DNA from: Litorivicinus sp.
Lineage (GTDB): Bacteria > Pseudomonadota > Gammaproteobacteria > Pseudomonadales > Litorivicinaceae
Length of the DNA stretch: 36,111 bases
Reading direction: 5' to 3'
Assembly (NCBI GenBank): GCA_009886945.1
Contig: QXYM01000095.1
Location: 1 to 36,111, forward strand
Below the pieces are notes generated by a model that was not told where the DNA came from, did not search any database, and worked only from the letters and a program-made list of their open reading frames with translations. The position numbers were made by a program, and so were the translations under genes. Shown here piece by piece: positions 20,526-26,490 of the stretch. The number at the start of each line of letters is the position of its first letter. Positions within the stretch are counted from its first letter, which is position 1.

Positions 20526-22322
20526 CTAATCTACCTTTAACACTGCCAAGAAGGCATCCTGTGGAATCTCGACGCGACCCACTTGTTTCATCCGTTTTTT
20601 ACCGGCTTTCTGTTTTTCTAATAATTTCCGCTTACGCGTGGCGTCTCCACCATAACATTTTGCGGTCACATTTTTACGCAGAGCTTTCACCGTCGTCCGA
20701 GCAATGACATGCCGACCGATTGCCGCCTGAATCGCGACGTCAAACATTTGACGAGGAATTAACTCACGTAATTTCTCAGCCAATTCTCGACCCCGCGACT
20801 GCGAGTGGTCTTTATGCACGATCGCGGCCAAGGCATCAACTCGCTCACCATTAATTAAAATATCCAGTCGGACTAATGGACAGGCTTGAAAGCGGACGAA
20901 ACTGTAATCCAATGAACCAAATCCACGTGTGGCCGATTTCAGACGATCGAAGAAGTCCATCACCACTTCGGCCATCGGCAAATCGAACTCAATCTGGACC
21001 TGGCTACCCATGTATTTTAGATCACGCTGTATGCCGCGCTTTTCAACACAGAGAGTCATCACCGATCCGACATATTCATTCGGCACTAAAATCGTTGCCG
21101 CAACCATCGGCTCGCGCATTTCCTCAATAGAGCCCACATCTGGCAACCGAGAAGGATTATCGACATAAAGAGTCTGGCCATCAGTCGTGATGACTTCGTA
21201 GACCACCGTGGGCGCTGAGGTAATCAGATCAAGATCGTACTCCCGCTCAAGTCGCTCCTGGATAATCTCCATGTGCAACATCCCCAAGAAGCCGCAACGA
21301 AACCCAAATCCCAGTGCATCGGAGGTCTCTGGCTCGTAAATCAGGCTGGCATCATTCAATGTCAGTTTTTCGAGGGCTTCACGAAAATCTTCGAAATCAT
21401 CGGCAGACACCGGGAATAATCCGGCATACACCTGCGGCTTCACTTTTTTGAACCCAGGCAGAGCATCGGTATCTGAAAACTTTGAATCAACCAGCGTGTC
21501 GCCGACGGGAGCACCATGAATGTCCTTGATCCCGGCAATCATAAACCCGACTTGTCCAGCCTGCAGTAACCCCGTCGAATGACGTTTGGGTGTAAACACC
21601 CCGACATCATCGATCTGCCAGTCACGGCCCGTGCTCTTCACGCGAATCTTCTGTCCTTTTTTCAAAGAACCCTGTGTCACTCGGATCAACGAGACCACAC
21701 CTAAATAATTATCGAACCATGAATCGATGATGAGTGCTTGGGTTGGTAGGCTTCGATCAACGGTTGGTGGCGGGATTTTGACGATCAGTTGTTCAAGCAG
21801 CTCATCAATCCCCAAGCCACTCTTCGCTGAACAGGGGATGGCCTCAGAAGCATCGATCCCAATGATATTTTCGATCTCTTGCTTTACCCGCTCGGGTTCT
21901 GCCTGTGGCAGATCCATCTTGTTCAACACAGGGACGACCTCAAGACCTTGCTCGATGGCCGTATAACAATTGGCGACCGATTGCGCCTCAACACCCTGAG
22001 CGGCATCCACCACCAAGAGCGCACCCTCACAGGCATACAGTGAACGCGAGACTTCATAACTGAAATCCACATGCCCTGGGGTGTCGATAAAGTTGAGTTC
22101 GTAGACCTCACCGTTGAGGGCTGTGTAATTCAGGGTGACGCTTTGGGCTTTAATGGTAATCCCGCGCTCACGCTCAATATCCATTGAATCCAGGACCTGA
22201 GCGCCCATTTCTCGCTCGGACAACCCACCACAACGCTGGATGAAACGGTCAGCCAGCGTTGATTTTCCATGGTCAATGTGCGCGATGATCGAAAAGTTTC
22301 GAATGTGTGAGGGGTCAGTCAA
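20526..22322 (-). CDS. lepA: Elongation factor 4 (LepA)
   Basis: [31 protein letters not shown]-terminal [23 protein letters not shown]. Confidence 0.97.
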
Positions 22323-22357: not shown

Positions 22358-23731
22358 TTAACGACCTAATCGCAAAGTGAGAAATGTTGAATTCCCTCCA
22401 CGTACAACTAGAACCGGAATCGGCCGATCAGTCGGCAACGAATCCATCAGATTTTGTAAGTCAGACACCTCAGAGATTTCCCGACCGCCGACCTGCGTAA
22501 TGATATCACCTGCTCGGAGTCCTGCCCCTAATGCAGGGTCTTCAGTGACCTCTTTTACCAAAATCCCGCCTTGGAGGTTGTTGTCCGCCTGCAACGAATC
22601 GGGTATTTCATCAACAACCATCCCTAAAAGCCCTTTCGGCTGCGATGACATCGTCTGCGCCACTTGGTCAGCGTCAGGGAGTTGCTCGATGGTGACATCG
22701 ATGGTGAGCCGATCACCTTGGCGCACGACATCCACTGGAACAGTCGATCCGGGGCGAACCAGTCCAACCATGGGTGGAAGATCGGAGGATCGTTCGACAT
22801 CCTTGCCATTAAAGCGAACTACAATATCACCGGGCTGGATCCCCGCCTTTCCGGCAGGACCTGAGGCAGAGGCTTGCGCAATCAAGGCTCCCATCGGCTT
22901 ATCCAAACCAAAACTCAGAGCAAGATCGCGATTCACTTCTTGAATTAAAACGCCAAGCCAACCACGACGCACAATCCCATCTTCTTTTAACTGCTCGGCT
23001 ACATTCATCACTAAATTCATCGGAATCGCGAAGGACAACCCCATGAATCCGCCTGAGCGCGTAAAAATCTGTGAGTTTATTCCCACAACCTCGCCCTCAA
23101 GATTAAATAACGGCCCTCCGGAATTCCCTGGATTAATCGCCACATCAGTTTGAATAAATGGCACATAACTTTCGTCAGGCAAGGCACGCCCCGTCGCACT
23201 CACGATTCCTGCAGTCACGCTGTAATCAAAACCGAACGGAGATCCAATCGCGACGACCCATTGTCCACGTTTCACTGCATCGCTATCGGCGATCTTGACT
23301 ACCGGCAAATCGTCGGCATCCAACTTCAAGACCGCAACATCGGAGCGTGGGTCGGTTCCGACAATCGTGGCGACATATTCTCGGCGATCATTCAAGCGAA
23401 CAATCACCGTATCAGCCCCTTCCACGACGTGGTTATTCGTCAAAACATATCCATCGTCAGAAATAATAAATCCTGAGCCCAGAGATCGACCTTCACGTTC
23501 TTGTGGAGGCATCGGCACACCGCGCTCGAAAAACTCCCGGAAAAATGGCGGTAATTGCTGCAAATCTGGCATTTGTTGCGGACGTGAAGCCGGTTGCGTC
23601 GAGCGTGTAGAAATGTTGACCACCGCGGGTGAGACGGTATCCACAAGCTTTGTGAACTCAGGCAACTGTGCCTGCGCTTGCACGCTGACAACCATCAGAA
23701 AACCCAAAACAAATCGCATCGCTGCACTCAT
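22358..23731 (-). CDS. mucD: DegP/MucD-type periplasmic serine protease (Do family, two PDZ domains)
   Basis: Signal peptide from MSAAMRFVLG; catalytic NNHVVEGAD, RSDVAVLKLD, GNSGGPLF; ATGA overlap with rseC. Confidence 0.93.
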   Translation of the reverse strand: MSAAMRFVLGFLMVVSVQAQAQLPEFTKLVDTVSPAVVNISTRSTQPASRPQQMPDLQQLPPFFREFFERGVPMPPQEREGRSLGSGFIISDDGYVLTNNHVVEGADTVIVRLNDRREYVATIVGTDPRSDVAVLKLDADDLPVVKIADSDAVKRGQWVVAIGSPFGFDYSVTAGIVSATGRALPDESYVPFIQTDVAINPGNSGGPLFNLEGEVVGINSQIFTRSGGFMGLSFAIPMNLVMNVAEQLKEDGIVRRGWLGVLIQEVNRDLALSFGLDKPMGALIAQASASGPAGKAGIQPGDIVVRFNGKDVERSSDLPPMVGLVRPGSTVPVDVVRQGDRLTIDVTIEQLPDADQVAQTMSSQPKGLLGMVVDEIPDSLQADNNLQGGILVKEVTEDPALGAGLRAGDIITQVGGREISEVSDLQNLMDSLPTDRPIPVLVVRGGNSTFLTLRLGR

Positions 23732-24135
23732 CGATTGATCCTTATTTGAAACGTTCGTGTCCAGCGCTGACTGAACATCCAACCCAGGGCTAGACCCAAC
23801 AGACCAGCACCTGCCTGAAGCGTCTCGCTCCACTCGAGGAACTGCCCCACAACAATCGGGCTCACAAGCCCCAACAGCGGCGGGCAATAGAGCTTCACGA
23901 GTTGCGAGCTGAAACGCTGACCGTCGATGCTAAGTGTCACTACATCACCGACACTCAAAGAAATGGGATCATTCAAGGGGATTTCAAAGGTTTGATCCGA
24001 AGTTTTTTGGCGGAGCCAATCCGACCGACAGCGACCAAGCTCCGTGCAGGCAGAACACAAAGGTTGAGACATTGGCTTGACCCAGCAATGGTCAGCCATC
24101 ACAGCAACCACTTCAACACGCTTTTCACAGTTCAC
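23728..24135 (-). CDS. rseC: RseC/MucC family sigma-E regulatory protein
   Basis: Cys-rich CSACTELGRC, two TM segments, located between rseB and degP. Confidence 0.82.
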   Translation of the reverse strand: MNCEKRVEVVAVMADHCWVKPMSQPLCSACTELGRCRSDWLRQKTSDQTFEIPLNDPISLSVGDVVTLSIDGQRFSSQLVKLYCPPLLGLVSPIVVGQFLEWSETLQAGAGLLGLALGWMFSQRWTRTFQIRINR

Positions 24136-25103
24136 TGCGTCCGACTCAACAGCCCTTTTAAACCATCCACATCGAGCGCATCGATAATGGTTTTCCCGGT
24201 TTCAGGAGGAATTTCGCCAACTAACGTGACTCGCAGTGCTCCGCCGGAGAGCGCGTAATCCTTGCCCAAAGCAACTGTGGGACCAAGAATTGCCTGCATA
24301 TCAGGCTCTGGTCGCGCATTGGTCAGCTCAAGGAAAATTGAAAAGCTTCCCAGTCCATCGGTATAAACAAGCGTATACACCCGATGACTGCCAGCGCGCG
24401 AAGGCAATGCGGACACCAATTGATAACCGGCAGGAAGCCAACTCGCCGGCGAAAATTGCAAGACCGACTCAGGCTCTGTAATCGGATAAACCTTGACTTG
24501 CAACGCCTCTTGCCCGCCTGCGATCTCAACGGTTTGTGGCCCAACAGTGAGCTCTGAAAACTCAAACTGCTCCAAGGTCTGATTATCAGCATTGACCGTC
24601 TGAGACCTTAGCAATAAGGACGTTTCCTCATCGACCCAGAATTTATAGCTGTGGCGATGCCCATCCATTGATTCCACAAGAACCAGTTGCGCCGACCGAT
24701 CTGCGATCCGCTCGACATTACCAAGAGTGATCTGATAAGGCGCTTCAAAAATCTGCGTGGATTCGGCATTGATCATGCCAGGCAGCGGATATCCTTGCCT
24801 CAGAACGTCCGGACCTGGCACCGCCTCGATCAGCACATTTCCTGATTGTGCTCGTTCCAGAGGCTGACCCGATAGCCGTCTTAAGCGCGCAGCTTCTTTG
24901 CCATTAATGACGTCATGCTGAAACGCCAGGTTGGCTAGAACATCCGCGCGTTGATAAACCAATTTTCCGGAATAGGATAAGGTACGAACCGCCATCGTCA
25001 TGGCACGAAGCTTTTCTTTCGCAGGCTCGGAGCTGATGGCGAACGATGGTGGGCTCAGTAGGATCAGCGCGCTGAACAACGCGCCAACGTATCGAGCAAG
25101 CAT
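24132..25103 (-). CDS. rseB: RseB/MucB sigma-E regulator
   Basis: Signal peptide; LSYSGKLVYQRADVL; YKFWVDEETSLLLRSQ; operon position. Confidence 0.88.
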   Translation of the reverse strand: MLARYVGALFSALILLSPPSFAISSEPAKEKLRAMTMAVRTLSYSGKLVYQRADVLANLAFQHDVINGKEAARLRRLSGQPLERAQSGNVLIEAVPGPDVLRQGYPLPGMINAESTQIFEAPYQITLGNVERIADRSAQLVLVESMDGHRHSYKFWVDEETSLLLRSQTVNADNQTLEQFEFSELTVGPQTVEIAGGQEALQVKVYPITEPESVLQFSPASWLPAGYQLVSALPSRAGSHRVYTLVYTDGLGSFSIFLELTNARPEPDMQAILGPTVALGKDYALSGGALRVTLVGEIPPETGKTIIDALDVDGLKGLLSRTQ

Positions 25104-25768
25104 TATTCGATTGGCTCGTCACGCCCCATGATACGAGCCAATGGTAAAACCGATGTTCCGCCAACGACTGCAGTATTCTCAGCATGACGAATCAAATACG
25201 GACTCAATCGGTTACTGACCAATTGCTTCATGTCTTGCTCTGTCAAAATCCTCGCCACAGGACGTCTTTCGACAGCATCTTGTTGACTAGTCATCCCATC
25301 AACCGAGACGGTTTCTTTTTGCACAGGCATTTGAAATTTAATCACTTCCAGTGGCTCAGCGACCGCAACAGAGGGTTGCGTGTCCACCGGTGCGACCACT
25401 TTCACACCAATCACCACCGCAAAAGCGATCGATGCCGCAATCGCCAACTGGCCAGTCAGTGCTGCAAACCGGTTCGGTAATGCTTCTTTGGCAGGTAGGA
25501 AGGTGACATGCGGATCGACTTGATGATGCGAAGCATCAACAATGGGTTTTGCCTCGGCGACCCCATCGAGTTCAGCATTAATCCGATCCAGCAAACTGGA
25601 GCCCAGGAGACTTTCTCCACGCATTGTGCTGCTGATGGCCTGGCATGACGCCCAGTAAGCCTTGAGATCGCCGCGGGTTTTCGTTGCGTCGACAATTTTT
25701 CGCGCCTCAAATTCCGTTGCTTCCTGATCCACTAAAGCCGACAGGGATTGCCGTAAGGTTTCAGTCAT
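25103..25768 (-). CDS. rseA: Anti-sigma-E factor RseA/MucA
   Basis: LRQSLSALVDQEATEFEARKI N-terminus, single TM (LAIAASIAFAVVIGVKVV), downstream of rpoE. Confidence 0.87.
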   Translation of the reverse strand: MTETLRQSLSALVDQEATEFEARKIVDATKTRGDLKAYWASCQAISSTMRGESLLGSSLLDRINAELDGVAEAKPIVDASHHQVDPHVTFLPAKEALPNRFAALTGQLAIAASIAFAVVIGVKVVAPVDTQPSVAVAEPLEVIKFQMPVQKETVSVDGMTSQQDAVERRPVARILTEQDMKQLVSNRLSPYLIRHAENTAVVGGTSVLPLARIMGRDEPIE

Positions 25769-25811
25769 TCAGTCACCACTCCGATGATATGGGTTTACTG
25801 TAATTTCAATC

Positions 25812-25839
25812 TTTGACAATTTCATTACAAAAAAGTTCC
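25812..25839 (-). promoter_or_regulatory. Predicted sigma-E (RpoE)-dependent promoter upstream of rseA, overlapping the rpoE stop region
   Basis: Minus strand GGAACTT (25839-25833), 15-nt spacer, GTCAAA (25817-25812), i.e. GAACTT-N16-TCAAA, matching the known sigma-E -35 element and spacing; the -10 is a near match to TCTGA/TCAAA. Confidence 0.65.
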
Positions 25840-26451
25840 CGGAAATTGTTGAGAAATTTCCTGAACCACATGATCGCGCGCCCGAAATATCCGAGAACGC
25901 ACAGTGCCGATCGGGCAATTCATCGCCAACGCAATCTCATCATAGCTCATTCCTTCAAGCTCCCGAAGCGTCAACGCCTGTTTCAAATCATCCGGCAACT
26001 GTTCAATGGCATGCAAAATCGCTCGCTGTAATTCTTCAGCACCGGCTTCTTCATCGGGCGCACTGAGATCTTGTAGCACCGACAACTCGCCGGTGGCTTC
26101 ATCATCAACAGAGACATCTTTGGATTCTTTCAATTTGGACGCGAGGTGATTTTTGGCAGTATTCACAGCGATTCGATAAAGCCAGGTATAAAATGCACTC
26201 TCACCCCGAAAGGTGTGTAGTGACCGATAGGCCTTGACGAAGGTATCCTGAAGGACGTCTAGCGCATCACTTTGATTCGAGACCAAGCGGTTGACGAGAG
26301 ACAATAAGCGAGACTGATACTTGAGTACCAACAAATCAAAAGCATGGCGGTCGCCCAAGCGCGCACGATCGACCAACAGCTGATCGTTTTCAGCCTCGAC
26401 TTTTTGAACTGGCGACTCCATACCCAACGTGCGATTTCTCAAGAAATTCAA
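25825..26451 (-). CDS. rpoE: RNA polymerase sigma-E factor (start may be internal, MESPVQ at 26421)
   Basis: AFYTWLYRIAVNTAKN; LPDDLKQALTLRELEGMSYDEIALAMNCPIGTVRSRIFRAR. Confidence 0.95.
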   Translation of the reverse strand: MNFLRNRTLGMESPVQKVEAENDQLLVDRARLGDRHAFDLLVLKYQSRLLSLVNRLVSNQSDALDVLQDTFVKAYRSLHTFRGESAFYTWLYRIAVNTAKNHLASKLKESKDVSVDDEATGELSVLQDLSAPDEEAGAEELQRAILHAIEQLPDDLKQALTLRELEGMSYDEIALAMNCPIGTVRSRIFRARDHVVQEISQQFPGTFL

Positions 26452-26490
26452 TGACTACGATGACATGAGTGATAAAAAAGGACAAGTAAT

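Follow-up and report, generated by a model that had tools for sequence, protein, structure and literature searches.

A predicted sigmaE promoter at the rpoE-rseA junction in the genus Litorivicinus

The rpoE operon and its first gene junction

The window, by which we mean the whole 36,111-nucleotide stretch of Litorivicinus sp. DNA that was analyzed (contig QXYM01000095.1), carries on its minus strand the gene order rpoE-rseA-rseB-rseC-degP, followed by lepA, with nadB divergent from rpoE (Table 1). An in-frame TTG is present at 26451, upstream of the rpoE ATG at 26421; locus L012 (genome G021) has an in-frame TAG just 5' of the conserved ATG, which fits the ATG, and not the TTG, as the start of rpoE. 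The RseA_N match of rseA lies just under the Pfam cut-off, and among three orthologues that we scanned, the proteins of a genus relative (35.6) and of the sister genus (58.8) pass it and that of another genus member scores 21.1. The real start codon of the degP/mucD-like gene is probably internal to the open reading frame. We also observed a sub-threshold Rfam match to AsrC, an antisense RNA of rseC mRNA, at 22246-22301 (+) on the antisense strand of lepA, which probably represents shared lepA sequence.

Table 1. Features of the rpoE region in window coordinates.
Feature	Position	Strand	Remarks
degP/mucD-like periplasmic serine protease	22358..23887	-	Pfam Trypsin_2 and PDZ domains
rseC	23728..24135	-	Pfam RseC_MucC
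rseB	24132..25103	-	Pfam MucB_RseB
rseA, anti-sigma factor	25103..25768	-	ATG 25768; Pfam RseA_N 23.8 bits (cut-off 24)
Predicted rseA 5' leader	25769..25806	-	From sequence; start near 25804-25806 predicted from promoter spacing
-10 element GTCAAA	25812..25817	-	15 nt 3' of the -35, rpoE-rseA intergenic region
-35 element GGAACTT	25833..25839	-	Predicted sigmaE promoter; within the final rpoE codons (GGA ACT T)
rpoE, ECF sigma factor	25825..26421	-	Pfam Sigma70_r2 and r4_2; ATG 26421; stop 25827-25825
Conserved block, nadB-rpoE gap	26457..26485	-	TTGTCC, 17 nt, extended -10-like TG-T-CATCGT

The 3' end of rpoE reads ...TTT CCG GGA ACT TTT TTG TAA on the minus strand. An earlier sequence-only reading had claimed that GTCAAA lies 15 nt beyond a GGAACTT at this end, and this arrangement is indeed found at 25839-25812 (-). 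It combines a -35 with an AAC core, a 15-nt spacer and a -10 of the form GTCNNA, as in sigmaE promoters. The pattern GGAACTT-N15/16-GTCNNA matched only once in the window and in 0 of 100 dinucleotide shuffles. The leader of about 37 nt that would follow contains a Shine-Dalgarno-like GGAGTGG ahead of the rseA ATG, and a scan of the T-run at the junction for a terminator found none.

We then scored the site with a two-block sigmaE weight matrix trained solely on rpoE-upstream regions from 111 loci outside the family of Litorivicinus sp., and 98 of these regions contain a sigmaE site. When both strands of the window were scanned, the junction site scored 20.1 bits, near the maximum of the matrix, and the runner-up scored 12.4. 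The -35, spacer and -10 are the same as in the canonical sigmaE/AlgU autoregulatory promoter (kGAACTT-N15-GTCtnA, the consensus of the training set); however, unlike the canonical promoter, the junction site is placed after rpoE, so that its transcript would exclude the sigma factor gene. The junction element is very probably a sigmaE promoter, from which sigmaE would initiate about 37 nt before rseA and produce a second, rpoE-less rseA-rseB-rseC-degP mRNA. Motif searches cannot prove which sigma factor is the cognate one, and the site might instead be recognized by another sigma factor or serve mainly for constitutive expression of rseA. We regard this as extremely improbable, given that no ECF sigma factor other than RpoE was found in the genome, RpoE being the sole small ECF-type protein among four Sigma70_r2 proteins in all, and that the motif equals the one upstream of rpoE in the 98 other loci.

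Conservation of the junction site within and beyond the genus

Conserved codons cover half of the element, and almost all genus members retain Pro-Gly-Thr, so that the match could also be a coding coincidence imposed by a conserved Pro-Gly-Thr-Phe C-terminus, with no promoter function. We therefore consider the conservation of each part of the element. Every one of the 16 genus members with a readable junction carries the junction site, with a 15-nt spacer throughout; 14 of the sites score at least 18 bits and the other two 15.9 and 12.5 (range 12.5 to 20.1). The AAC core of the -35 occurs in 16/16. In an anchored alignment of these genomes, the G, T, C and last A of the -10 are identical in 16/16, whereas the 47 columns 3' of the -10 reach a maximum identity of 14/16. 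In every genome but one, this -10 lies beyond the coding frame, and the check put forward by the sequence-only reading, namely whether the -10 is conserved where the DNA is non-coding, thus came out positive. The rpoE stop falls 12, 15 or 30 nt from the start of the -35 among genus members, and the spacer nonetheless remains constant. The -35 codons are also the most frozen of the conserved rpoE codons tested (GGA 14/14, ACT 14/15), whereas other conserved Gly, Thr, Ala, Val and Pro codons show a top codon usage of at most 80%. In L017, the Gly of the -35 is replaced by Glu, yet the AAC core and the -10 are kept, and the sister genus retains GGAACTT-N15-GTCAAT despite a different RpoE C-terminus. 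Given the invariant -10, the spacer that stays fixed while the stop moves, and the frozen synonymous sites, we rejected a coding coincidence, which we consider very unlikely; L017 and the enrichment of junction sites in other Pseudomonadales (below) also argue against it.

We also searched the rpoE-rseA junctions of other loci. Sites of at least 9 bits were found in 30 of 131 other Pseudomonadales loci versus about 2.1 expected from the reverse strand (approximately 14-fold), sites of at least 12 bits in 16 of the 131 versus 0.7 expected, and sites in 9 of 184 loci drawn mostly from other orders versus 2.0 expected, all of these being counts that ignore kinship among loci. The idea that the junction site is unique to the Litorivicinus genus was thus rejected: it occurs in other families, and 10 of the 131 loci have a junction site without an upstream site. 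These junction-only loci (L332, L384, L390, L399, L412, L422, L429, L434, L435 and L437) are possibly independent cases of the same wiring. The sigmaE-type rpoE-rseA sites of other Pseudomonadales (L027, L429, L440, L431 and others), some of them without an upstream site, differ from the Litorivicinus site in that they are mostly fully intergenic and lie at varied distances, and the likeness does not imply homology to it. Our survey points to the repeated occurrence, within Pseudomonadales, of a sigmaE promoter that serves rseA separately. Literature searches found no published description of such a promoter in this order, and nothing relevant on a mucA-proximal AlgU promoter.

Sigma E-type sites were also seen inside rpoE at recurrent positions, namely in L038, L041, L045 and L161 (stop-290 to -293), in L077, L083, L087, L108 and L111 (stop-232) and in L133 (stop-271). 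The loci with such sites are mostly without an upstream site, and the sites may be promoters similar to E. coli rseA P3 or may merely reflect shared codons.

The region upstream of rpoE

It had also been claimed from the sequence that rpoE lacks an equivalent sigmaE element upstream, and our scan agrees: only one of the 16 genus members showed a sigmaE site of at least 9 bits within 450 nt upstream of rpoE, although the weight matrix could miss a degenerate site. The best upstream match in the Litorivicinus sp. genome scored 1.2 bits. Of the 15 genus members listed, 14 had best scores between -2.7 and 5.3 bits, and the exception was L016, with 13.3 bits inside nadB. The sigmaE promoter upstream of rpoE that marks an autoregulated rpoE operon is thus not seen in Litorivicinus sp. 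Of the sister-genus loci, L031 carries both sites (upstream 15.2 bits, junction 18.9 bits), and L033 has a junction site plus a weak upstream candidate, GGAACCG-N15-GTCAGA (6.4 bits). Given these candidates, the upstream site may have been lost in the Litorivicinus genus.

Because nadB is divergent, rpoE must be transcribed from a promoter of its own. An alignment of 15 genus genomes showed that the nadB-rpoE gap holds CTTGTCCTTT-N11-TG-T-CATnGT with constant spacing and few substitutions. Read toward rpoE, this block presents TTGTCC, 17 nt and an extended -10 in which the key A and T are retained, and GAAC is absent from it. A sigma70 consensus scan did not detect TTGTCC-N17-CATCGT, and we only tentatively propose the block as a non-sigmaE, sigma70-like promoter of rpoE. 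It overlaps the ribosome-binding site of nadB and could partly serve that gene; its CTTG is not part of this ribosome-binding site, and this favors a role in the expression of rpoE.

We also considered the possibility that the junction promoter is real but that rpoE is autoregulated by sigmaE as well, through a weak or divergent upstream site, giving a two-promoter circuit like that of E. coli, in which sigmaE promoters lie both upstream of rpoE and inside it (PMC8595263). An upstream sigmaE site is present in most of the Gammaproteobacteria sampled, and the two sister-genus loci point the same way. However, the best upstream scores in the 14 genus members are at background level, far from the 12.5 to 20.1 bits of the junction sites, and the conserved gap block is without GAAC, so that we think such a circuit unlikely here. 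Instead, judging from the sequences compared, rpoE is probably free of sigmaE control.

The reading that we prefer, which agrees with the negative-feedback bias proposed in the sequence-only reading, joins the junction sigmaE promoter to a non-sigmaE promoter of rpoE, and it is likely, in our estimation, that together they would form a circuit dominated by negative feedback and lacking positive autoregulation. In this circuit, a promoter not recognized by sigmaE would lie in the nadB-rpoE gap and drive transcription of rpoE, with read-through into rseA. Under envelope stress, the freed sigmaE would raise the levels of its inhibitor RseA, of RseB, which partners RseA, and of the protease DegP, whereas sigmaE itself would not increase.

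Known counterparts, other sites in the genome and meaning

The sequence-only reading had contrasted this locus with E. coli, where rpoE has its own upstream promoter. That promoter does exist (its site, GGAACTT-N15-CTCTAA, is in our training set), but the contrast was incomplete, since a sigmaE promoter inside rpoE that drives rseABC with a 228-nt leader, rseA P3, was already known (Rhodius et al. 2006, as cited in PMC8595263). Applied to E. coli, the matrix found CGAACCC-N15-GTCAGA (9.3 bits) at a position consistent with that leader, and similar sequences are present in Vibrionaceae. As with rseA P3, the Litorivicinus site lies between the rpoE and rseA starts and is predicted to give an rpoE-less rseA transcript. 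However, rseA P3 scores lower with the matrix, lies some 230 nt 5' of rseA and has a long leader that is subject to regulation, whereas the Litorivicinus site is near-consensus, spans the rpoE stop, is followed by only about 37 nt of leader and is accompanied by no detected upstream sigmaE site. We therefore regard it as a functional analogue of rseA P3 and not as the same promoter. A promoter of this kind is already known from E. coli; the Litorivicinus site is set apart by where it lies, by its strength close to the consensus and by the fact that rpoE has apparently escaped sigmaE control.

As an internal control, we used a TGAACTT-N15-GTCtnA site between polA and engB, the interval in which the Spot 42 and ErsA genes lie. 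This site (G000:C37:7013-7039 (-), loci L185/L308; orthologues L219 and L303-L321) is conserved genus-wide, and 3' of it lies a compact sRNA-like segment that has a strong intrinsic terminator. In Pseudomonas, ErsA is dependent on sigma22 (PMC5819304). An Rfam search around the ErsA-like candidate gave only a sub-threshold match to anti-hemB. Strict pattern scans of the genome for a broad sigmaE regulon showed no enrichment, reversed-pattern controls giving more matches; the clearly promoter-like sites in these scans were those of rseA and the ErsA-like segment only, degenerate sites being of a kind that escapes such scans.

ECF sigma factors have usually been described as positively autoregulated together with the anti-sigma gene. 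It is conceivable, though we hold it with less than even confidence, that the Litorivicinus genus and, independently, several other Pseudomonadales lineages have lost sigmaE autoactivation, so that sigmaE would induce the anti-sigma factor, DegP and an ErsA-like sRNA in a purely negative-feedback response. A lineage in which the sole detectable sigmaE promoter of the operon lies after the sigma factor gene provides a natural experiment on the contribution of positive autoregulation. Lacking such autoregulation, the stress response should settle faster, and its amplitude should be capped. The stress response in this genus appears to be wired mainly toward its own shut-off.
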